In this document: piece after piece, positions 4,736 to 47,644 of the stretch
Position numbering within the stretch: the first letter of the stretch is position 1
Layout: each line of letters starts with the position of its first letter
DNA from: Candidatus Magasanikbacteria bacterium GW2011_GWC2_37_14
Lineage (GTDB): Bacteria > Patescibacteriota > Patescibacteriia > Magasanikbacterales > UBA922
DNA: 60,438 nucleotides
Assembly (NCBI GenBank): GCA_000990355.1
Contig: LBSX01000006.1
Coordinates: 1 to 60,438 of the forward strand
Reading direction: 5' to 3'
The notes under the pieces: generated by a model
Told to the model about the DNA's origin: nothing
The model's input: the letters and a program-made list of their open reading frames with translations, nothing else
The model's database searches: none
Position numbers and translations under genes: made by a program

Positions 4736-5329
4736 ATGCTTGAACACCTATTTGGTTCAAAAACACGCTTAAAGCTTTTACGCTTCTTTTTTAGGCATTC
4801 AGATCGCCCTTATTTTGTACGAGAATTGGCCAGAGAATTGGGAGTGCAGGTAAATGCTATCCGCAGAGAATTGGAGTTGTTGGTTTTGGCAACATTAATC
4901 AAGGAAGTGGCTGCAGGAGAAAAAAGTAATTATGAACATGGTTCCAACTTACGTAAGTATTATATTTTAAATGAAGATTCATTGCTAACTCCAGAGCTAC
5001 AAGCATTGCTACTAAAAGCCCAATTGTTGGGAGAACAAAAGTTTATCAATGAGGTTAAGGATCGTGCTGGCGAAATTAAATTATTTTTATTAACTGGACA
5101 ATTTACTGGTGATACACGTACCAATAGTGACTTGCTTTTGGTGGGGGAAATTAAGGAAAGGGTAGTAGACAAAATAGTTACTGAGTATGAAAAAGAGTTT
5201 GGTTTTGAAATTCGTTATACAATTATGAGTGAAAAAGAGCTTTTAGATCGTCGGCGGATGATGGATAAATTTTTGTATGCTTTGTTTGAAGCCAATAATG
5301 TAAAGGTAATAGATAAGTTTAATATTTAA
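4736..5329 (+). CDS. Winged-helix DNA-binding protein with degenerate nucleotidyltransferase-like C-terminal domain
   Basis: FVRELARELGVQVNAIRRELELLVLATLIKE wHTH; TRTNSDLLLVGE resembles the MNT GSDxDLLVVG motif. Confidence 0.6.
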   Translation: MLEHLFGSKTRLKLLRFFFRHSDRPYFVRELARELGVQVNAIRRELELLVLATLIKEVAAGEKSNYEHGSNLRKYYILNEDSLLTPELQALLLKAQLLGEQKFINEVKDRAGEIKLFLLTGQFTGDTRTNSDLLLVGEIKERVVDKIVTEYEKEFGFEIRYTIMSEKELLDRRRMMDKFLYALFEANNVKVIDKFNI

Positions 5330-5330
5330 T

Positions 5331-5771
5331 ATGTATTTGCTAATTGACATGTCGGAACAGGACAAAATTCATCTTGCTGTTTTTGATAAAATACAAATTG
5401 AACACAAATATTATACAGGTAGAAATCGTAAGCTTTTGGTTTGTATAGATAAATTACTCAAGAGTTCCCCCCTTGGTAAAGGGGGGGCAGCCCGCCTGCC
5501 GGCGAGGCAGGGGGGGTTATTGTCTGGAATCATGGTGGCAGTTGGAACAGGAAGTTTCACTAGTACTCGTGTGGCTTGTGTAGTAGCCAATACTTTTGCC
5601 TACACATTACAAATTCCGCTCTTGGCTATTAAAAAAGAAGAAATTGTTAAAGTCCAAAAGTTGATTAAAAAATTTGAAGCTTGCCCGGCGAAGCCCGGAG
5701 GGCGAAGACGGGGACAATATCTCTCTGCCACTTATAGTGGCGAACCTAATTTAGGGCCAGCTAAAAAATAA
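5331..5771 (+). CDS. TsaB-like protein (t6A biosynthesis family) with two internal repeat insertions
   Basis: MVAVGTGSFTSTRVACVVANTFAYTLQIPLLAI matches the TsaB signature; repeat-derived segments SSPLGKGGAARLPARQGGLLSG and CPAKPGGRRRGQ. Confidence 0.65.
   Translation: MYLLIDMSEQDKIHLAVFDKIQIEHKYYTGRNRKLLVCIDKLLKSSPLGKGGAARLPARQGGLLSGIMVAVGTGSFTSTRVACVVANTFAYTLQIPLLAIKKEEIVKVQKLIKKFEACPAKPGGRRRGQYLSATYSGEPNLGPAKK
5464..5520. repeat. Palindromic repeat family IV (CCCCCCTTGGTAAAGGGGGG), in frame within the tsaB-like gene
   Basis: Same core at 11711-11795, 14703-14730 and 47239-47320. Confidence 0.75.
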
Positions 5772-5775
5772 TTAT

Positions 5776-7062
5776 ATGCGGGAGGAAGAATTAATAAAAA
5801 AATTTAAAAAAATGCCTTGGCGACCTTGGCTTAAAAGGTATTTTCCTGTGTTAGTAGCTTACTCAATGGTAAAGGGTGGCTTGGAGAAGAGTTTTGCTAA
5901 ACAAGGTATAAAAGGTGAAATGCCCTTTGTTTTGTTTGAAAAAAATATGTGGTATGGAACGCCAGAGATGTTTAAACAAGGTGGTTTGGAGGCAGAAAAG
6001 TATATTAAAAAATTAGGTATGAGGTTTTTGGTAATGATTTGTTTAAATGCTTATAAAAAAGCTTTACGAGAGGTGGACAAAATGGTTAAAGACAAAAAAA
6101 GTGATCCTCTAAAACAATATAAAAAAATTATTGAATTACTAGAACCAATTAACGTGAGTATCTGGACAGCACACGCAGGAGAGGTTTATTTTGATAATGA
6201 ATTAGAAAAAAAATTAAAGTCTTTTGTGCCAAAAAATAAATTGGATGAGTATATTGGTGACATTGGTTTTCCCAAACGTAAAAATGCTCACTCCTTAATG
6301 GTGGCTGACATTTTGAAGGGCATGAAAACCAGAGATTTATTTATTAAGTATTCTTGGTTGAAAAGCAGAATAGAAGCAGGCTTTGGTATTGGTTACACCT
6401 ATTCAGAAATTGTAGACTTACGTAAAAGTATTATTAATAATCCACCAGTTAAACATCAATACCCAAAAATTCCTAAAGAAATAAAAAAATTAGTTGCTGG
6501 CTTGCAAGATATTGTTTTTTTGCGTACTTTTCGTACGGATTCATTATTTGAAATTTATTTTAAGGCTCGGTCGATTTTTGCACGTTTAGAAAAAGAATTA
6601 GGCATTGATTCGGTTAAATATTATTTACCAGAAGATATTATTAGTGGTAGGCTAAAACGTTATGAAAAGTTTGCTGTTCTTAAGTATTACGACGACATTG
6701 TAGTAACCGAACAAAAAATTGTTGAAGAAGAGAAAGTAAATAATCAAGAGATAAAAGGGGCGATTGCTTGGAAAGGTATTGCACGCGGAAAAGTAAAAAT
6801 AATTTTTAATCCCTCGCAAATAAATAAAGTAGAAGTCGGTGATATTTTGGTAACCAACATGACGATTCCGGCCTATTTGCCGGCCATGAAAAAGGCAGCC
6901 GCTTTTGTGACTGACGAAGGCGGTATTACTTGTCATGCCGCCATTATTGCCAGAGAAATGAGAAAACCTTGTATCACTGGCACCAAATTTGCCACCAAAG
7001 TTTTACAAGATGGTGATTTGGTGGAAGTTGATGCTGATAAAGGAATAATTAAAAAATTATGA
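5776..7062 (+). CDS. PEP-utilising mobile (phosphohistidine) domain protein 1
   Basis: C-term VGDILVTNMTIPAYLPAMKKAAAFVTDEGGITCHAAIIAREMRKPCITGT. Confidence 0.85.
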   Translation: MREEELIKKFKKMPWRPWLKRYFPVLVAYSMVKGGLEKSFAKQGIKGEMPFVLFEKNMWYGTPEMFKQGGLEAEKYIKKLGMRFLVMICLNAYKKALREVDKMVKDKKSDPLKQYKKIIELLEPINVSIWTAHAGEVYFDNELEKKLKSFVPKNKLDEYIGDIGFPKRKNAHSLMVADILKGMKTRDLFIKYSWLKSRIEAGFGIGYTYSEIVDLRKSIINNPPVKHQYPKIPKEIKKLVAGLQDIVFLRTFRTDSLFEIYFKARSIFARLEKELGIDSVKYYLPEDIISGRLKRYEKFAVLKYYDDIVVTEQKIVEEEKVNNQEIKGAIAWKGIARGKVKIIFNPSQINKVEVGDILVTNMTIPAYLPAMKKAAAFVTDEGGITCHAAIIAREMRKPCITGTKFATKVLQDGDLVEVDADKGIIKKL

Positions 7063-8840
7063 ATTTAGAAAATTTTAAAAATAGAAATTGGATCAAGCAT
7101 TGGGCCGGGCATTGGCAGCTGTTAAACAACTCTTTGTTGGGTTATCAATACACTAAACTCTTGAAAGATGAAATTGGTAGAGGGCTAGAGGTTGATGTGA
7201 TAATTTCACATCAAGATCGATCAGTTGCCTATTTAGATGCAGATGATTATAAAAAATTTGCAACCTATTTGGCAGAGAAAGTGGTATATAATGAGGAGAG
7301 TCTTCAACATTGGACAGATTTGTTGCATAAAAAGGCAGATGGAATTTTAAATTTTATAGAATCTACAAAAAAACAAAAGGCTTTTGCAAAAGAAGGAGCG
7401 CAAAATTTTATTAACATTTTTTATAGTTATTCTGTGCCTCACAGAGTGGTAAAAGTCGTAGTTGATGGTTTAAGTCCGGACAAGCTAGAAAAGTTTTTGC
7501 CAAAACTTGAAGAGGCTAGAGTTTATGCCGAGCCGGTTTATGCCGAAACGGAAAAGTTTATAGAATTTTTGGCAGATAAAATTGCCAAAGAAACGTGTTA
7601 TAATGTCCAGCAACTGCCTCACCTTACTAAAGAAGAATTTTTAGAGTATTGGGATTCGGGAAAACTACCGAGTAGAGAAGAAATGGAGAAAAGATATTAT
7701 GCTACAGCTATATTATACAAAGAAGGCGAGTTTACTTTGTTGACAGGTGAAGAAGTTGGAGAGGTGGAAATGATTGTTACCAATCAGTCTGCTGTTGGTG
7801 AAGAGACTTGGACTAAAAATTGGTCGGGTAATTGGTGTTTGCTCTTGGGTTCGTCGTATGGAGATATTTATACTAAGGGCCTAAAAGAATTGGTGGGCCG
7901 TGGCTTTAAGAAATTTTTTGTTACTTTTGAATCGGGCACGAGTGCCAATTATCTGAACCAGGCAGAATTAGCCGAGCATTGTCATTATTTGGTTTCTTTA
8001 ATAGAAAAAGATAATACTTTACCAGAACGCTGGGTAGAGCAGGTGATGATTAATTCTGATAAAATTTTTGCTTTGTTTAAAGAAATTGCCAATAAAAAAA
8101 TTTACACCAGACGAGATTATGAAGATTTGCAAGAATATCGGTATCGCATTACCATGGCCAATTTTTCTATCAAAAAAGTAATTGATTTTTTACCTGATGA
8201 TTTGCGCGAAAAATATTTACCATTATTTACCAAAGCTCGGTTGCATTCCGAGCCAGTCTATAATGAAGCTGATGAATATCTGCGAATAGTAGTTGGTTAT
8301 TTATTGCAAAATCGTTTGTCAGTCCAAGCTTTGGCCGTGTTAACCAAAGAAGATTTAACAGAATTTTTTGCTTCGGGAAATTTACCAAGCGAAGAAATTT
8401 TATTAGAACGCTATGGTGGCTGTGCATTGGAATATAACCAGACTGGTGAAGTAAAAATATACCAAGGTGAAGAATATAAAAAATTAATGTCTGGCATTGC
8501 TAAACAATCAACTGGTCAAGAAATAAAAGGCCAAATTGCTTATCGTGGCAAGGTGACTGGCCGAGTGCGAGTAGTTTCAGACCCCAAGAATTGTCTTGAT
8601 TTTCAAGAGGGAGATATTTTGGTGACAGGCATGACGCGTCCAGAATATTTATCTTTAATGAAAAAATCTGGGGCTTTTGTTACCGATGCTGGCGGCTTAC
8701 TTTCTCACGCCGCCATTGTCGCTCGCGAACTTAAAAAACCCTGTATCATCGGTACCGAAGTAGCCACTAAGTTTTTGAAAGATGGGGACATGGTGGAGGT
8801 AGACGCCGAGAAGGGGATAGTAAAGAAGCTGAATTATTAA
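7059..8840 (+). CDS. PEP-utilising mobile domain protein 2 (duplicated N-terminal module)
   Basis: Two repeats NWIKHWAGHWQLLNNSLLGYQYTK.../TWTKNWSGNWCLLLGSSYGDIYTK...; C-term VTDAGGLLSHAAIVARELKKPCIIGT. Confidence 0.85.
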   Translation: MNLENFKNRNWIKHWAGHWQLLNNSLLGYQYTKLLKDEIGRGLEVDVIISHQDRSVAYLDADDYKKFATYLAEKVVYNEESLQHWTDLLHKKADGILNFIESTKKQKAFAKEGAQNFINIFYSYSVPHRVVKVVVDGLSPDKLEKFLPKLEEARVYAEPVYAETEKFIEFLADKIAKETCYNVQQLPHLTKEEFLEYWDSGKLPSREEMEKRYYATAILYKEGEFTLLTGEEVGEVEMIVTNQSAVGEETWTKNWSGNWCLLLGSSYGDIYTKGLKELVGRGFKKFFVTFESGTSANYLNQAELAEHCHYLVSLIEKDNTLPERWVEQVMINSDKIFALFKEIANKKIYTRRDYEDLQEYRYRITMANFSIKKVIDFLPDDLREKYLPLFTKARLHSEPVYNEADEYLRIVVGYLLQNRLSVQALAVLTKEDLTEFFASGNLPSEEILLERYGGCALEYNQTGEVKIYQGEEYKKLMSGIAKQSTGQEIKGQIAYRGKVTGRVRVVSDPKNCLDFQEGDILVTGMTRPEYLSLMKKSGAFVTDAGGLLSHAAIVARELKKPCIIGTEVATKFLKDGDMVEVDAEKGIVKKLNY

Positions 8841-8848
8841 TATAACTT

Positions 8849-10276
8849 ATGCTGGAAGAAAAAATTATTGATGAGAAAAATAACCTTATTTTAAAACAGG
8901 GAGTTCTTGATTTGAAAAAATATAAATTAGCAAAAATAGTTCGCAGAGATAATTCTCCATTTTTTAATTCACTGATGAGGGTTGGTTCAACAATAGAAAA
9001 TCCTGAATTAGGGTTTGATAGTCGTATGCCAGTACATGTAGTATTAGATAATGATATTTATTATTGTGAAGATGATTTTAAAAAACTGGAAAAAATAATC
9101 TTATTTAAAGCAGAAAATGACAGTACTTTTTATGACCGATATTTTGAAAAAGTAGAAAAAGATTGTGCAGAATTTTTACAATGGTCCAGGGAGCAGAAAG
9201 TTCTTTCCGAACCACTCCGGGTTTATAATGAATATATTGACTGGTCCTTAAAAATAATGAGTCATTTATGGCCTTGTTTGGCTCCAGAAAAACTAATATT
9301 AGAGCAGATAGAATTAAAACTTGCCAAATATATTGATCCTAAAACAAAATTTGCTGAATTTAAGAACGCCCTGATGTTGCTTACCTCGCCAACTGAGTTT
9401 TCTGAGATGAACCTAGAAAAAAAAGAAATTTTTGAAGGGAAAGATTTGAAAGAGGTTTATGATAAATATATTTATATAAGGGATCAAGGTCTTTATTTTA
9501 GATACCAAACTTTTGAAGAATATAAACAAGAGTTGGTTAAAATTGATAACCCAAAAAATCAACTGGAAAAAATGATGAACGATCTTGAGGCAGTGCGGAC
9601 GAATCAAAAAAATCTTATAAAAGAATTAAATTTGGATAAAGAGTTATTAACTTATTGTAAATTCGCTCGAGTAATACCACATATTCGCATGATTAGGAGA
9701 ATTTGTGTTATTGAAGCAGGATATAACATAAGAGAATTATTTTACGAATTGGGCAGAAAAGTTAATCTGAATGATGTTGCTCTTGCTTATTATTGGGAGA
9801 TTAGAGATCTTTTAGAAGGAAAAATAGTCGATAAAGATAAAATTGTCAAAAGAAAAAATTCGTATAGTTTTATTCTCATTGGTAATAATTTTTATGAGTG
9901 CGGAGAAAAAGAGGCAATTGAGTTAAAGAAAAAAATTGAGTCAGAGGTGGTTTTAGGAAACGAAATAAAAGGCCAGACAGCCTGTTTAGGCAAGGTGACA
10001 GGCAGAGTAAAAGTATTACATTCTGTTAAAGATTTGGGTAGAGTTGAGCGGGGCGATATTTTGGTGACGTCCATGACCATGCCAGATTATATTCCGGCTA
10101 TGGAAAAAGCCATTGCCTTTGTTACGGATGAAGGCGGTTTGTCTTGTCATGCAGCAATTGTAGCTCGGGAAATGAATAAACCCTGTGTCATTGGTACTAA
10201 AATTGCTACTAAAATGTTTAAAGATGGGGACTTGGTTGAAGTGGATGCCGCCAGAGGCATTGTTAGAAAAATATGA
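8849..10276 (+). CDS. PEP-utilising mobile domain protein 3
   Basis: C-term VTDEGGLSCHAAIVAREMNKPCVIGTKIATK. Confidence 0.85.
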   Translation: MLEEKIIDEKNNLILKQGVLDLKKYKLAKIVRRDNSPFFNSLMRVGSTIENPELGFDSRMPVHVVLDNDIYYCEDDFKKLEKIILFKAENDSTFYDRYFEKVEKDCAEFLQWSREQKVLSEPLRVYNEYIDWSLKIMSHLWPCLAPEKLILEQIELKLAKYIDPKTKFAEFKNALMLLTSPTEFSEMNLEKKEIFEGKDLKEVYDKYIYIRDQGLYFRYQTFEEYKQELVKIDNPKNQLEKMMNDLEAVRTNQKNLIKELNLDKELLTYCKFARVIPHIRMIRRICVIEAGYNIRELFYELGRKVNLNDVALAYYWEIRDLLEGKIVDKDKIVKRKNSYSFILIGNNFYECGEKEAIELKKKIESEVVLGNEIKGQTACLGKVTGRVKVLHSVKDLGRVERGDILVTSMTMPDYIPAMEKAIAFVTDEGGLSCHAAIVAREMNKPCVIGTKIATKMFKDGDLVEVDAARGIVRKI

Positions 10277-11709
10277 TTGATTTAACTAAAATTAATTGGC
10301 ATTATATTCATACTCGTCGGCGTAGTCCTTGGTATGCTTACTGTTGGTGGCAGGGTGTTGGCACTAAAACTTTAGATTTAGGTTTTGACTACCAGGTTAA
10401 ACACGTTGGCGCTGCTGGTCATAAAGTTCTCATGTCTGAGATTGATTGGCAAACTCAACAACAAGCTCTATTGGCAGAGATCGAGAAAGAACCTTTGTTT
10501 TTACACAAGATATTAAAAAAAGCCTATCAGGCTCATGAGGAATTTACTGAATTTTGTAAAAAAATGTATGAGATAAAAGATTTTAGTGGTTATTCTAATG
10601 ATGAATTGATTAGTAAAGTAAATAAATATAGGGATTTATTTTTTTGTTGTGATGGTCCATCGATTTTGCCGTTGTATATAGAAGAAGATATTACCGAAAA
10701 AATCTATAATATCTTTAAAAAGGAAAGTAAAATAGCTGATAAAGAATATGCAGTGGTTATGACACCGGTGAAAGATTCAATAATTATTTTGGAAGAAGAA
10801 AGTTTATTAAAAATTGTTGTTAAATATAAAGAAGAGGGTAAAGATACTATTATTAAAGATTTAATAGAACATATTTTTAATTATGGCTGGATGAAAAATG
10901 TTGGTTATTATGGTGAATTTTTTGATCAAGATTATTATCTACAGAGAATTGAAAAACTTATTCAGGAAAATACTGAGGAACAATTACAGATTATTCAGTG
11001 GGAGAGAGAAAAAAAGCAAAAAATATTCGCTGATTTATTGGAAAAATACAAAAATAATAAATATTTAGTTAGCTTAATTAAAACTATTAACGAAGCTATT
11101 TATTATCGTAGTTTTCGTAGTGAACAATTTTATCAGTCGCCTAAATATTTAATAACTTTTTTTATAGAAATAGCCAAACGTTTAGGTTTGAGTGAGTACC
11201 GAGATATTTTTTATTTTATTCCGCCAGAAGTAGTTGAACTTTTAAATAAAAAACAAAAAGGAAATCAAGAGAGTATTGCCAGACGTAAAGATTGTTTTGT
11301 GCTTATAACCAATTTTGAAGATAGAGTTTTTTATGAAGGTGAAGAGGCTAAAGTAATAGTAGACAAGATAGGTGTTGTTTCCTTGGAGACGGATGAAATC
11401 AAAGGCCAAGTAGCTTTTTCTGGTAAGGTTACTGGCATAGTTAAAATTGTTAAAGGTCCAGATGACTTTGATAAAGTTAATAAAGGTGATATTTTAGTAG
11501 CTATGTCCACACAGCCAAATTATGTGCCAATTCTTAAAAAAGTTGCGGCCATAGTTACAGAGGAAGGCGGAGTTTTGTGTCATGCTTCTGTTATATCTCG
11601 CGAATTAGAAATTCCTTGCATTATTGGAACCAAAATCGTCACCCAAGTTTTAAAAGATGATGATATGGTTGAGGTTGATGCCGAGAAGGGTGTGGTGAGG
11701 AAGTTGTGA
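10273..11709 (+). CDS. PEP-utilising mobile domain protein 4
   Basis: C-term VTEEGGVLCHASVISRELEIPCIIGTKIVTQ. Confidence 0.85.
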   Translation: MIDLTKINWHYIHTRRRSPWYAYCWWQGVGTKTLDLGFDYQVKHVGAAGHKVLMSEIDWQTQQQALLAEIEKEPLFLHKILKKAYQAHEEFTEFCKKMYEIKDFSGYSNDELISKVNKYRDLFFCCDGPSILPLYIEEDITEKIYNIFKKESKIADKEYAVVMTPVKDSIIILEEESLLKIVVKYKEEGKDTIIKDLIEHIFNYGWMKNVGYYGEFFDQDYYLQRIEKLIQENTEEQLQIIQWEREKKQKIFADLLEKYKNNKYLVSLIKTINEAIYYRSFRSEQFYQSPKYLITFFIEIAKRLGLSEYRDIFYFIPPEVVELLNKKQKGNQESIARRKDCFVLITNFEDRVFYEGEEAKVIVDKIGVVSLETDEIKGQVAFSGKVTGIVKIVKGPDDFDKVNKGDILVAMSTQPNYVPILKKVAAIVTEEGGVLCHASVISRELEIPCIIGTKIVTQVLKDDDMVEVDAEKGVVRKL

Positions 11710-11710
11710 G

Positions 11711-11795
11711 GTTTCTCCCCCTTGTAGGGGGAGCCAAGAGGGGGTCTGTTTTGCTAACGACCCCACCCTACCTCCCCTAAAAGGGGAGGAAATAC
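11711..11795. repeat. Palindromic repeat family IV, intergenic
   Basis: ctcccccttgtagggggag...ctcccctaaaaggggag between genes 4 and 5 of the array. Confidence 0.7.
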
Positions 11796-11801
11796 AAAAC
11801 T

Positions 11802-13187
11802 ATGTCAAAAATAATTTGGAGAAAATTTTGGGAAAGAGATTACACCTACCAATATGTGGAGTGTCTTTTGTCCGCTCTTACCAGTTGTTTGGAACAAGAA
11901 AAAATAAAATCTTTTAAAAACATGCTATTTGTAAGAAAGAATAATAGCTCGAGTATTTACAGTAAAACAAATGAACATGAATATTTTATTAAACAATTAC
12001 ACAAAAAATTTTTATCCAACAAAAATGAGATAATTAAGTTTAAACAACGTCTCATTAAAACAGGCAAAGCCTATCTATTTTCTGCCCAGACAAGTAAACA
12101 GGTTAACTTGACTCTGCTTTCACAACAAAAATTATTATCGTTATTAAAAGTTCATTATCAAAATTGGTTAAATTTTACAGTACGAATTTGGGTGGTTTGG
12201 AATAGTTCGGAATATTTTTCAGAATTAACCGGGCATTTACTAGAGGATAAAACTCGTCAGTGTGGGCAAGAGGCAAAATTATCACAATATCTTAAATATA
12301 TTTCTACACCAGTAAAAAAATCTTCGATTTTGTTATTAAATGAAAAATTAAACAAATACAAAGCTGGCAAAAAAATTGATCTGGATAAAGTATATAAAGA
12401 TTTTTTGTGGATGCCTTGTGGAGATTTGCATGGCGAACCTTGGACTAAAAAACAATTTTTAGAATATGTAAATAATTTCCAAATTAGCCAAGACGACGGA
12501 GTAATGGCAATTGATCCAAGTCAAGATTTGCATTTAAACGCTGAAGAAAAATTATTGATTAAAGTAAATAGAGAAATGGCATATTTGCGTGATTATCGTG
12601 ATGAGATACGTCGGCGTACTGTATATTTTGCGCGGTTTCTTTATCAAGAAGTAGCGCGACGCTTTAATATCACTTATGAAGATTTAATGCTTTATTCTAC
12701 TCCAGAAGTTTTTGAATTGTTTAAAGGTCATAAATTATTAGCGCGTGAATTGCAAGCACGACGCGGTGATACTATTATTATAATAAAAAATAATAAATTA
12801 AAAGTGTTGGTCGGTCAAGATCGAGACAAGATGCTAAAAGAAATTGTCTTTGCTGATAATTCTGAAGTAAAAGAAATAAAGGGGCTGGTCGCTTCCAAAG
12901 GTAAAGTGCAGGGAATAGCAAAAATTGTTAGTCTAGACAGTGATTTAAAGAAAATTAATCAGGGAGATATTATGGTGGCTGTCACTACGCATCCCGAGTA
13001 TGTAATAAAAATGCAATTGTCTAGCGCGATTGTCACCGACGAAGGCGGACTTACTTGCCACGCTGCTATTGTGGCCCGGGAAATGAAAAAACCTTGTATT
13101 GTTGGTACCAAAATTGCCACCAAAGTTTTGCATGATGGTGATTTGGTGGAAGTGGATGCCGAAAAGGGAATAGTGAGGAAAATATGA
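11802..13187 (+). CDS. PEP-utilising mobile domain protein 5
   Basis: C-term VTDEGGLTCHAAIVAREMKKPCIVGTKIATKVLHDGD. Confidence 0.85.
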   Translation: MSKIIWRKFWERDYTYQYVECLLSALTSCLEQEKIKSFKNMLFVRKNNSSSIYSKTNEHEYFIKQLHKKFLSNKNEIIKFKQRLIKTGKAYLFSAQTSKQVNLTLLSQQKLLSLLKVHYQNWLNFTVRIWVVWNSSEYFSELTGHLLEDKTRQCGQEAKLSQYLKYISTPVKKSSILLLNEKLNKYKAGKKIDLDKVYKDFLWMPCGDLHGEPWTKKQFLEYVNNFQISQDDGVMAIDPSQDLHLNAEEKLLIKVNREMAYLRDYRDEIRRRTVYFARFLYQEVARRFNITYEDLMLYSTPEVFELFKGHKLLARELQARRGDTIIIIKNNKLKVLVGQDRDKMLKEIVFADNSEVKEIKGLVASKGKVQGIAKIVSLDSDLKKINQGDIMVAVTTHPEYVIKMQLSSAIVTDEGGLTCHAAIVAREMKKPCIVGTKIATKVLHDGDLVEVDAEKGIVRKI

Positions 13188-14701
13188 AAATACCTAAAGA
13201 TTATAAAAAAGTTATTTCGACCGCTGCTGGTAAAAACAAATGGTATTTTTTAACCAAGCGTGGAGATATTCCACCGCTTTCTGTGTGGCTCAAAATTGTG
13301 GCTTTTTCTTATGAACCAGAAAGTAAAAAACTTTTTGGTGAAGCCATACCTTGGTCGGCTTATTGGTCTCACAACGACATTAGTTTGTATTTAACCACGC
13401 GCGGTTTTAAAAAGGCATGCGAAAAAATGACCAAGATTATCTATACGCCAACTTTGTTGCGTCGTCATTTAAATCGTTTAGATTATTTGTGCCAAGCAGC
13501 CAGACAAGAAGCTAAGTATTTTTATGATCGAGAATTAGTTGTAGTTAAAGAAAAAGAATTATTAAAACATTATCAAGCAGTAGTTAAAAATTACGGTTTA
13601 TCTTTTTCATATGGTTTTTTTACTTGGTGTTCACAAGTTTTACAAAAACAGGCTAAAGAAATTATTGTTAGCTATGAAGATAAGTTAAAAATTTTAAATT
13701 TGGATAAAGATAGCGCTTTGGGTATTTTAATTGTTTCCGAAGAGAAGTCATTGTATAGAAAAAAAGAAGAAGCTTTGGATAAATTATCCAATATTTATTA
13801 TTTAAAAATAAAAGAATTAAAAATTAAAAATCTTCAGGAAGTTGCCAAATTATTGCCAGCTTTGGATAAAGCTATAAAAGATTTTTTAAAAAAGTATCAA
13901 TGGGTAAGTTATGATTACAATGGGCCGACTATTTCTTATGAAGAAGTTTTATCGGCTATTAGTTCAGTTAGGGACGGCGGAGTAAAAAATATTTTAAACA
14001 AAGAACAAATTATTAGTAAGTGTAAAATTAAAAAATCTGAGCAAACAGTTTTTGAACATCTCTCACTAGTTTCTTGGGCCAAGGATTTACGCAATACTAT
14101 TGATGATTTTGTACATTGTTCACTAGATAATTTATATCGAGAAGTTGGTCGACGACGGGGATTAGAAAAAATTGAAGTTAAATATTTATGGCCCGAAGAA
14201 TTTGTAGATTTACTTTTAAATAAACAGCAATTTACTCATGCTTATCTTAAAGAAAAACATGATGAATGTTTAACTTTTACCTTGCCAAAAAAAGTTGGAG
14301 TGGCAGAGTTTTATGTGGGTGAAACAGCAAAAAAAATTGCTGAAAAAGAATTTTGTTTGGCAGTCGACAAAACCGATCGTACAAAGCCCTTGAAAGGTAC
14401 TGTGGCTTCACCAGGTAAAGTAGTTGGCCCAGTAAAGATTGTTCAAAATTTTTCAGAAATTAATAAAGTAGAAAGTGGTGATATTTTGGTAGCTTATATG
14501 ACTAGCCCGCGTTTTATGCCAGCAATTCACCGGTGTGCTGGAATTGTCACAAATGACGGTGGCCTTACTTGCCATGCAGCAATCATTGCCCGCGAAATTA
14601 AAAAACCTTGTATTGTTGGTACCAAAATTGCCACCAAAGTTTTGCATGATGGTGATATGGTGGAAGTGGATGCAAATAAGGGTGTGGTGAGGAAGTTGTG
14701 A
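13184..14701 (+). CDS. PEP-utilising mobile domain protein 6
   Basis: C-term VTNDGGLTCHAAIIAREIKKPCIVGTKIATKVLHDGD. Confidence 0.85.
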   Translation: MKIPKDYKKVISTAAGKNKWYFLTKRGDIPPLSVWLKIVAFSYEPESKKLFGEAIPWSAYWSHNDISLYLTTRGFKKACEKMTKIIYTPTLLRRHLNRLDYLCQAARQEAKYFYDRELVVVKEKELLKHYQAVVKNYGLSFSYGFFTWCSQVLQKQAKEIIVSYEDKLKILNLDKDSALGILIVSEEKSLYRKKEEALDKLSNIYYLKIKELKIKNLQEVAKLLPALDKAIKDFLKKYQWVSYDYNGPTISYEEVLSAISSVRDGGVKNILNKEQIISKCKIKKSEQTVFEHLSLVSWAKDLRNTIDDFVHCSLDNLYREVGRRRGLEKIEVKYLWPEEFVDLLLNKQQFTHAYLKEKHDECLTFTLPKKVGVAEFYVGETAKKIAEKEFCLAVDKTDRTKPLKGTVASPGKVVGPVKIVQNFSEINKVESGDILVAYMTSPRFMPAIHRCAGIVTNDGGLTCHAAIIAREIKKPCIVGTKIATKVLHDGDMVEVDANKGVVRKL

Positions 14702-14770
14702 TTTGTCCTCCCCTTACCAAGGGGAGGTGGCGAGTCAAGCGAGCCGGAGGAGTTGCCGGAGTTTAAAAAT

Positions 14771-15003: not shown

Positions 15004-15279
15004 ATGTACCAACTTAACCTCACAATCCACGGTCGAGTACAGGGTGTAGGTTTTCGTTGGAGTGTTATGAAAAAAGCCAAGAGTTTAGGCTTGGTTGGAT
15101 ATGTTAAAAATTTGGTCAATGGCATAGTAGAAGTTCTAGTAGAAGGTGATAAAGAAGACTTGAAAAAACTGCTAGAATATTGTAAAATAGGACCCTTACT
15201 TGCCCATGTTGAAATTGTCGGAGAAAAATGGGAAAGTTTAGATATTCTGCATTTTAAAATTTTTGAAATAAGATTTTAA
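15004..15279 (+). CDS. acyP: Acylphosphatase
   Basis: HGRVQGVGFRWSVMKKAKSLGLVGYVKNLVNGIVEVLVEG. Confidence 0.92.
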   Translation: MYQLNLTIHGRVQGVGFRWSVMKKAKSLGLVGYVKNLVNGIVEVLVEGDKEDLKKLLEYCKIGPLLAHVEIVGEKWESLDILHFKIFEIRF

Positions 15280-46798: not shown

Positions 46799-46903
46799 TG
46801 TCATGCTGAATTCACCTGCCTATCGGCAGACAGGTTTCAGCATCCCAAAGGATCCTGAAACCTTTCGGCGTGAGCTCAGGTCGAATGCAAGTTCAGAATG
46901 ACA
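46799..46903. repeat. Palindromic repeat family III overlapping the 3' end of truB
   Basis: tgtcatgctgaa...cagcatcc...gatcctgaaacc...cagaatgaca. Confidence 0.75.
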
Positions 46904-47644
46904 ATTGTCTGGCGTCTTTGCATCTGCTAATTTATATTCTCCAATCTTTGTCCTTTCCAATTCCTCGCAATACGCCCCACAGCCTAGCTTTTTACCAATG
47001 TCATTGGCCAGGGTACGGATATAAGTTCCGGCTGAACATTCTACTTCTATTTTTAGTGTTGGATAATTATAATCCAGAAGTTTTAGATTATAAATTTGTA
47101 TTTTATTTTTTTTACGTTTAACAGTTATCCCTTTGCGCGCCAAATTATATAATTTTTGGCCATTAATTTTTTTGGCAGAATACATTGGTGGCATCTGTTT
47201 AATTTTTCCGATGAATTTTTTTAACACCCGTTCAATTACCCCCCTTGGTAAAGGGGGGTGAGGGGGGTTATTGGTAAAAATTTTGGCAAACAACCCCCTT
47301 ATTCCCCCTTTTTTAAGGGGGATAATGATTGTACCTGTCTTATCAAACGTATCGCTTACTGAACCAAGTTTAATTGTTGCCACATAAGTCTTTGGTAGAT
47401 TTTTAAATTCATCCAGTCTTTTTGTTGCTTCTCTTCCCACACCAACAATCAAAAGCCCTGTGGCAAATGGGTCTAATGTACCGGCATGTCCAACTTTTAT
47501 TTTGTCATTGCGAGGAAGCCGATTCGCATCGGCTGACGTGGCAATCCCTTGGTTTTGTTTGCGTGCCATCTTTCTAACATAAGCCACAACATCAAAACTA
47601 GTCCAGCCTGAGGGTTTATTTATGAGCAGAAAATTATTTAACAT
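46820..47644 (-). CDS. truB: tRNA pseudouridine(55) synthase TruB carrying several repeat-derived segments
   Basis: LLINKPSGWTSFDVVAYVRK..KVGHAGTLDPFATGLLIVGVGREATK..CSAGTYIRTLANDIGKKLGCGAYCEELERTKIG. Confidence 0.92.
   Translation of the reverse strand: MLNNFLLINKPSGWTSFDVVAYVRKMARKQNQGIATSADANRLPRNDKIKVGHAGTLDPFATGLLIVGVGREATKRLDEFKNLPKTYVATIKLGSVSDTFDKTGTIIIPLKKGGIRGLFAKIFTNNPPHPPLPRGVIERVLKKFIGKIKQMPPMYSAKKINGQKLYNLARKGITVKRKKNKIQIYNLKLLDYNYPTLKIEVECSAGTYIRTLANDIGKKLGCGAYCEELERTKIGEYKLADAKTPDNCHSELAFDLSSRRKVSGSFGMLKPVCR
47239..47320. repeat. Palindromic repeat family IV, in frame in truB
   Basis: ccccccttggtaaaggggggtgagggggg...caacccccttattcccccttttttaaggggg. Confidence 0.75.
47503..47548. 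repeat. Palindromic repeat family I, in frame in truB
   Basis: tgtcattgcgaggaagccgattcgcatcggctgacgtggcaatccc. Confidence 0.75.

Follow-up and report, generated by a model that had tools for sequence, protein, structure and literature searches.

What do six consecutive genes do that share a phosphohistidine domain at their C-termini and little else? The question is raised by a stretch of 60,438 nucleotides (the window), contig 6 (LBSX01000006.1) of Candidatus Magasanikbacteria bacterium GW2011_GWC2_37_14, in which such genes occupy positions 5776-14701. The source assembly (GCA_000990355.1) has 1,102,395 bases in 24 contigs and an estimated completeness of 100%. We propose that each of the six genes encodes an acceptor subunit of a Rph/HpeHI-type split dikinase, and that the subunits are charged by an ATP-grasp protein that is encoded on contig 11 of the same genome. 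We put the probability of this reading at about three in four. Other loci and genomes are cited below by our working numbers (L and G).

Six genes with a common phosphohistidine domain

The six open reading frames (ORFs) follow one another on the + strand (Table 1). Pfam placed the PF00391 swivel domain at the C-terminus of every product (E 1e-23 to 3e-25), and the histidine of the catalytic position is intact in 6/6. The same residue was present in all 262 non-redundant swivel domains of related loci, nine of which missed the strict His motif. A divergent member recurs as the closing gene of three arrays (L148:16358-17863, L150:11312-12826, L156:13364-14869); judged by its altered motif, GGHGIT[ST]HPATL[AS]REAG, it is likely a special subtype.

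Three of the five gene junctions in the window array are 4-nt ATGA overlaps, and at the remaining two the genes are separated by 8 and 92 nt. Amino acid identity between the genes is about 16% in the N-terminal regions and rises to 45-70% in either half of the His domain. Searches with Pfam and NCBIfam found neither an ATP-grasp (PF01326) nor a phosphoenolpyruvate (PEP)-binding TIM barrel (PF02896) in the six proteins, and nothing convincing outside the swivel. The NCBIfam matches, to PEP synthase, Rph, PigC and similar models, some of them prodigiosin or undecylprodigiosin ligases, lay mainly across the swivel and far under the cut-offs; the RIF_Ptrans_rph scores, for example, were 57-70 bits against a cut-off of 999 bits.

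A sequence-only reading of the window had described the tandem + strand genes with their shared swivel, the kept phospho-His, the highly divergent N-terminal regions free of ATP-grasp and PEP barrel, and several 4-nt overlaps, and all of this held. It had passed over four features that are treated here: a doubled N-terminal domain in gene 2, a 57-nt tail that is identical in genes 5 and 6, a further array with eleven members, and an ATP-grasp protein that stands alone. The 57-nt tail probably reflects local gene conversion, to judge from the sequences. Wholesale recent copying of 3′ tails was rejected: a long identical run occurs in genes 5 and 6 only, and synonymous sites of the tails are otherwise not more alike than elsewhere.

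The N-terminal domains resemble the substrate-binding domain of Rph

Modelling of the N-terminal regions, which the sequence-only reading had suggested, was done with AlphaFold for genes 2 and 4. For gene 4 we aligned 44 array-type proteins, taken from the window and public genomes; this alignment also served as our wider profile. The gene 4 model had a pLDDT of 90.4 and a pTM of 0.86. Foldseek comparison of this model with the PDB returned six Rph structures, including 5fbu, 5fbt and 5hv1, as the six best matches (E 6e-15 to 4e-13, about 560 columns). The template modelling score (TM), by query, reached 0.61 (5hv1). PPDK, pyruvate kinase and enzyme I matched in the swivel part only, with TM values of about 0.2. 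The gene 2 model (pLDDT 82) again had Rph as its six top PDB matches. Its TM was low, probably because the N-terminal domain is doubled: the two short domains cover about residues 1-240 and 250-485 and match each other with 100 bits. The N-domain profile links genes 3, 5 and 6 to gene 4, and gene 1 only weakly (19 bits).

The 44-sequence profile aligns along Rph residues 452-866, through the substrate domain. With the profile of the N-terminal region alone, three Rph sequences ranked 1-3 of 177,635 PDB sequences, at a marginal E of 0.03. A narrower profile of 14 N-domains from the own genome found no relatives in the PDB or NCBIfam; the link to Rph surfaced via the wider profile and structure prediction only. 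The second active site of Rph contains the catalytic residues R666-E667-x-x-K670 (PMC4844700). R666, E667 and K670 align with a family motif [Q/R/K]-D-x-R-K, whose D is found in 33, R in 36 and K in 31 of the 44 proteins. The acidic and lysine positions are kept in kind in most relatives, more weakly in the window genes. Together, the ranking of Rph at the top of both models and the profile alignment indicate that the array N-domains are, by predicted structure, substrate-binding domains of the Rph kind, not ATP-grasps and not PEP barrels.

A stand-alone ATP-grasp in the same genome

Gene counts for the own genome are based on family searches and fetched stretches. PF00391 has 19 matches: the six window genes, eleven genes of a second array, a PEP synthase and a 364-aa protein. 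The second array lies on the minus strand of contig 1 (L022:2166-18453) and has several 4-nt overlaps. The acceptor subunits range from 360 to 593 aa, and the two arrays together make up 2.3% of the genome. The PEP synthase is complete (L023; 987 aa, PPDK_N, swivel and PEP barrel). The 364-aa protein carries its swivel at the C-terminus and follows a pyruvate-kinase barrel gene (353 aa) on contig 15 (L025:3602-5754). This pair looks like a split relative of swivel-carrying pyruvate kinases, outside the array family.

PPDK_N, the ATP-grasp domain, occurs twice in the genome, in the PEP synthase and in a stand-alone protein on contig 11 (Table 1). The latter aligns along its full length with Rph's ATP domain (E 9e-56) and with HpeI (PDB 9GOJ; E 5e-47). 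HpeI serves as ATP subunit in HpeHI, a two-component dikinase (PMC12167813). The positions corresponding to K22, R117, E297, Q309 and R311 are conserved in 24/24 stand-alone ATP-grasps, and that of T136 always holds T or S. A tree of 71 ATP-grasp domains placed 23 stand-alone and five fused ones opposite all 43 PEP synthases, and the separating branch had support values of 100/99.

The ATP-grasp and the His genes occur together

A candidate partner in trans, for which the sequence-only reading had proposed a survey, is present in the own genome, and it co-occurs with the His genes across relatives. The own genome and relatives, 59 genomes in all, were classed by hand for a His domain and for an ATP-grasp, each beyond the PEP synthase. 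Both were present in 24 genomes, a His domain only in two, an ATP-grasp only in none, and neither in 33 (Fisher p 1.5e-14, with genomes taken as independent and kinship uncorrected). G043 was scored on an incomplete ATP-grasp at the end of a contig, and G010 and G017 on fused or partial ATP-grasps; when these three were left out, p was 2e-13. In a hand count, 36 of 286 Patescibacteria genomes had at least three PF00391 domains.

These data bear on whether the array proteins might instead be loaded from PEP, through a complete PEP synthase or an enzyme-I-like protein. The genome does encode a PEP synthase, and in some genomes with extra His genes only a PEP synthase was seen. Four genomes (G097, G120, G198, G269), however, have 6-10 His domains and, as the sole PPDK_N detected, a stand-alone protein of 312-343 aa, so a PEP synthase does not appear to be required. 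The strict co-occurrence and the branch of the ATP-grasps apart from PEP synthases also speak against loading from PEP, as do fusions in which an ATP-grasp, not a PEP barrel, is joined to N-His modules. We consider it very improbable.

Pairs, arrays and fusions in relatives

In many relatives the ATP-grasp gene directly adjoins the His genes (for example L164, L165, L166, L157, L175 and L139). The counterpart of the window array in G008 and G009 consists of one His gene and an ATP-grasp, the single-pair form. Both parts also occur in one chain. L172 (779 aa) and L082 (853 aa) encode fusions in the Rph order ATP-grasp, N-domain, His, and fusions with two His modules are found at L098 (1311 aa) and L163 (1130 aa). 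A single ORF at a Woesearchaeota locus (L066:7262-18544) encodes 3761 aa and combines one ATP-grasp with eight His modules; another, in archaeon nzgw56 (L074:1-8811), is at least 2937 aa long and includes eight His swivel domains. For archaea with small genomes these are very large modular proteins.

Modules of L066 and L074 have relatives among the separate genes of Patescibacteria and among those of L072, a Planctomycetota metagenome-assembled genome that carries an array of its own, possibly on a mis-binned contig. Module 0 of L066 is related to window gene 2 (E 2e-29) and module 3 to a Nealsonbacteria gene (4e-59), whereas module 6 of L074 is related to L164, from a relative of the window genome (6e-95). 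Window gene 1 has orthologues over its whole N-domain in G007 (L146), G057 (L156), G014 (L158), an Uhrbacterium (L083) and a nanoarchaeon (L065); its top matches in the sequence collection show 33% identity across residues 5-428. The N-domain of gene 5 has a 138-bit match in a Woesearchaeon (L073). Subfamilies recur between genomes. A conserved array order was looked for and rejected, as gene order and content differ from genome to genome. A viral origin was rejected as well: the collection matches span the swivel or little more, and a viral structure library gave matches of His-domain size only.

The mega-fusions L066 and L074 would fit a biosynthetic assembly line, in which modules act in turn on one intermediate and each activates it by phosphorylation, as ligases of the PigC/RedH type do in one step; L066 would be its single-chain form. 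The kinship of the modules to separate genes and the weak NCBIfam matches to prodigiosin-type ligases agree with this. The variable order and content of the arrays do not, nor does the existence of one-acceptor systems in G008 and G009, and among the fetched loci no further biosynthetic, carrier or export genes recurred near arrays. An assembly line therefore seems unlikely to us.

Least probable of the explanations considered is a family kept for variation itself, as in conflict or surface diversity, with little catalysis. The very divergent N-domains, the variable array content and the probable gene conversion between two of the 3′ tails could be read in this way. Such a family would hardly have kept the catalytic His in 262/262 domains, and short and long N-domains alike match Rph first by structure. 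For single members, counterparts can be recognised in other genera, phyla and even domains, which argues for a specific, kept job of each and against mere diversification.

Genes of the histidine-phosphatase superfamily near the arrays

Highly divergent genes of the histidine-phosphatase superfamily (RHG) recur in or beside arrays, often on the opposite strand (L146, L150, L154, L156, L157, L160, L151, L163, L072). Those over the Pfam cut-off are in L156 (two genes), L150, L146 and L157, and more PF00300 matches lie on array contigs of G022, G034 and G036. By a rough count, which assumes that arrays take up 5% of a genome, 11 of the 21 PF00300 matches in genomes with the system are near array genes. 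In the own genome, the gene upstream of the ATP-grasp (L024:6634-7677) has an RHS motif and a sub-threshold PF00300 match (13.7 bits).

SixA is a phosphohistidine phosphatase that acts on phosphocarriers (PMC7948535, PMC6282199). A regulatory phosphorelay could be pictured on this model: the ATP-grasp would take the place of enzyme I of the PEP-dependent phosphotransferase system (PTS), and the array proteins would be sensors or effectors that pass phosphate from His to His or to proteins. RHG phosphatases would reset them as SixA does NPr. The recurrence of RHG genes and the activity of SixA on a phosphocarrier His (PMC7948535) suit this picture, and a single donor with many carriers resembles a branched relay. 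On the other side, Pfam and NCBIfam found no receiver, HPr-like, kinase or DNA-binding domain in array proteins, the N-domain fold is that of a small-molecule site, and the fusions keep the Rph order. We regard a relay as improbable, although somewhat less so than an assembly line. It was one of two inferences of the sequence-only reading, and as a multi-component phosphorelay it found no direct support; the other, swappable recognition modules on a common phosphocarrier tail, is favoured by the predicted Rph substrate-domain fold.

Proposed mechanism

In the cycle of Rph and PpsAB the ATP-grasp holds ATP, the His receives the beta-phosphate via a pyrophospho-His, and the swivel passes the phosphate to the substrate domain (PMC4844700, PMC12167813). 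By analogy, the contig-11 ATP-grasp would bind ATP and transfer the beta-phosphate to the swivel His of an array protein. The charged swivel would then turn to its own N-terminal substrate-binding domain and phosphorylate a small molecule, the products being AMP, Pi and the phosphorylated compound. HpeH and HpeI are both required, yet form no stable complex (PMC12167813); one ATP-grasp could therefore serve many acceptors by collision, and here a single charger would serve about 17 acceptor subunits through such transient contacts. With this ratio, the N-domains in the arrays would set the substrate range.

Our best guess for the role, by analogy with HpeHI, is that small molecules, once scavenged, are metabolically trapped or activated. 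The authors of the HpeHI study proposed that phosphorylation traps scavenged compounds inside the cell (PMC12167813), and phosphorylative trapping would suit host-dependent cells with small genomes. Detoxification, as by Rph, would be the next guess.

Several observations weigh against the split-dikinase reading. The ATP-grasp of the own genome sits on a separate contig, outside the arrays. G016 and G032 have an extra His gene and no stand-alone ATP-grasp, and six Patescibacteria with at least three PF00391 domains (G084, G106, G142, G183, G223, G289) show a single PPDK_N, in a protein of PEP-synthase size. Homology of the N-domains to Rph is based mainly on structure, and the sequence signal outside the His domain is marginal. 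The Arg-Glu pair of Rph is not conserved letter for letter, and of the D-x-R-K residues the window genes keep only the R well. Seventeen small-molecule kinases are hard to square with the presumably sparse metabolism of a 1.1 Mb genome, and the dikinase assignment is computational.

The split dikinase might be part of something broader. More tentatively, we can imagine a modular phosphohistidine platform of Patescibacteria and DPANN, in which one ATP-grasp would energise interchangeable acceptor modules, whether separate genes or an eight-His chain, and RHG proteins would be the off-switches. The modules would set the substrate repertoire or act in series. We think this possible, though doubtful as a whole.

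Relation to known systems

HpeHI (Rhodococcus), CreHI (Corynebacterium) and the phenylphosphate synthase PpsAB (Thauera) are two-component small-molecule dikinases (PMC12167813). The present system shares with them a separate ATP-grasp, homologous to the Rph ATP domain and HpeI and with its catalytic residues kept. It also shares a second subunit in which an Rph-like substrate-binding domain precedes a C-terminal His swivel, a likeness that is weaker for gene 2. Both subunits are encoded in the own genome, and their genes are adjacent in many relatives. In contrast to the described systems, which typically but not strictly have one acceptor per ATP-grasp, there are 17 to one stand-alone ATP-grasp here. 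The acceptors are also of another size range than HpeH (71 kDa), and the array N-domains are very divergent. No aromatic catabolism genes were seen beside the arrays examined, and the array family includes fusions with 2 to 8 His modules and has RHG phosphatases nearby.

Rph (5FBS, 5FBT, 5FBU, 5HV1; PMC4844700) consists of the same three kinds of domain, in the order kept in the fused L172 and L082. It differs in that the ATP-grasp of the window system is a separate protein, with no PPDK_N in the six window proteins, and in that its R-E-x-x-K appears as D-x-R-K in the array family. PEP synthase and PPDK have the His swivel and an ATP-grasp of the same family, but the array proteins lack the PEP-binding TIM barrel and an ATP-grasp in the same chain, and the ATP-grasps belong to another branch. 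Enzyme I of the PTS or PTS-Ntr, together with SixA, offers a phospho-His swivel carrier with a histidine phosphatase at its side. The array proteins, however, have neither the HPr-binding helical domain nor the PEP barrel, their matches to enzyme I are limited to the swivel, and no EII-like partners were found.

The chemistry and the two-part layout are thus of an already known kind, and the sequence-only reading, which saw in the array the best candidate for an undescribed system, is right only in part. What is new is the proposed use of one charger for about 17 acceptors, the archaeal fusions of an ATP-grasp with eight His modules, the recurrence of single members across phyla and the RHG neighbours. 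In the openly licensed literature we found no account of arrays of the one-to-many kind, of multi-His fusions or of the Patescibacteria/DPANN family, and no paper on 'PEP-utilizing' proteins in the candidate phyla radiation or Woesearchaeota.

More than 2% of a reduced genome would be devoted to one predicted kind of enzyme, in organisms whose host dependence has long been debated, and the substrates would reveal what the cells scavenge, trap or detoxify. For DPANN genomes, 'phenylphosphate synthase' and aromatic degradation have been reported with the next enzyme, the carboxylase, missing (PMC8091004), and for Patescibacteria, rph resistance genes (PMC8651080). Both annotations may refer to members of the array family. 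L073 (JAAOYF010000016.1, isolate DPANNHV_H2.bin.75), with a nine-gene His array and a separate ATP-grasp, appears from its isolate name to stem from the same DPANN study. The prediction of a single charger is directly testable with two purified proteins.

Flanking genes and minor observations

The array fills a slot between a pair of genes, for a winged helix-turn-helix (HTH) protein and a TsaB-like protein, and a glycosyltransferase gene. The slot is filled differently in related genomes. The HTH/TsaB pair adjoins His genes in five of them (L146, L158, L162, L166, L175), and in G008 and G009 it adjoins the ATP-grasp gene too. An acylphosphatase gene follows the array. As an array partner it was rejected, since a motif scan of the other array loci did not find it, and it is probably a bystander.

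Table 1. Features of the array region in the window and the predicted ATP-grasp partner
Feature	Location	Strand	Product and remarks
Winged-HTH protein	4736-5329	+	Left flank of array slot
TsaB-like protein	5331-5771	+	Left flank; ends 4 nt before gene 1
Gene 1	5776..7062	+	428 aa; substrate-binding-type N-domain (predicted), C-terminal His swivel (6835-7044)
Gene 2	7059..8840	+	593 aa; two tandem short N-domains, one His swivel (8601-8816)
Gene 3	8849..10276	+	475 aa; main-type N-domain, His swivel (10046-10258)
Gene 4	10273..11709	+	478 aa; main-type N-domain, His swivel (11479-11691); structure predicted
Gene 5	11802..13187	+	461 aa; main-type N-domain, His swivel (12957-13169)
Gene 6	13184..14701	+	505 aa; main-type N-domain, His swivel (14471-14683)
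Acylphosphatase gene	15004..15279	+	Just 3′ of array; PF00708 E 3e-23
Stand-alone ATP-grasp (PPDK_N)	L024:5632-6624 (contig 11)		330 aa

At six other loci (L165, L160, L161, L148, L178, L179) a gene for an NAD(P)H-hydrate dehydratase (PF01256) overlaps the first array or ATP-grasp gene or lies a few nt from it; none was seen beside the arrays of the own genome. Another divergent family, whose members are about 780-860 aa long and match PPDK_N in fragments, was met in G040:C10, G024:C22, G057:C40 and G009:C37 (L182, L184, L183 and L176, respectively). Some of its members have a weak swivel, and the family is distinct from PEP synthase as well as from the array system.

Palindromes of a C-run and a G-run, of the type CCCCCTT..AAGGGGG, were noted at 5467-5487, 11717-11786, 14710-14724 and 47239-47321. 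Some lie between window genes; others fall within the TsaB-like frame and a TruB-like frame (46820-47644), as if palindromic repeats had been inserted in frame.

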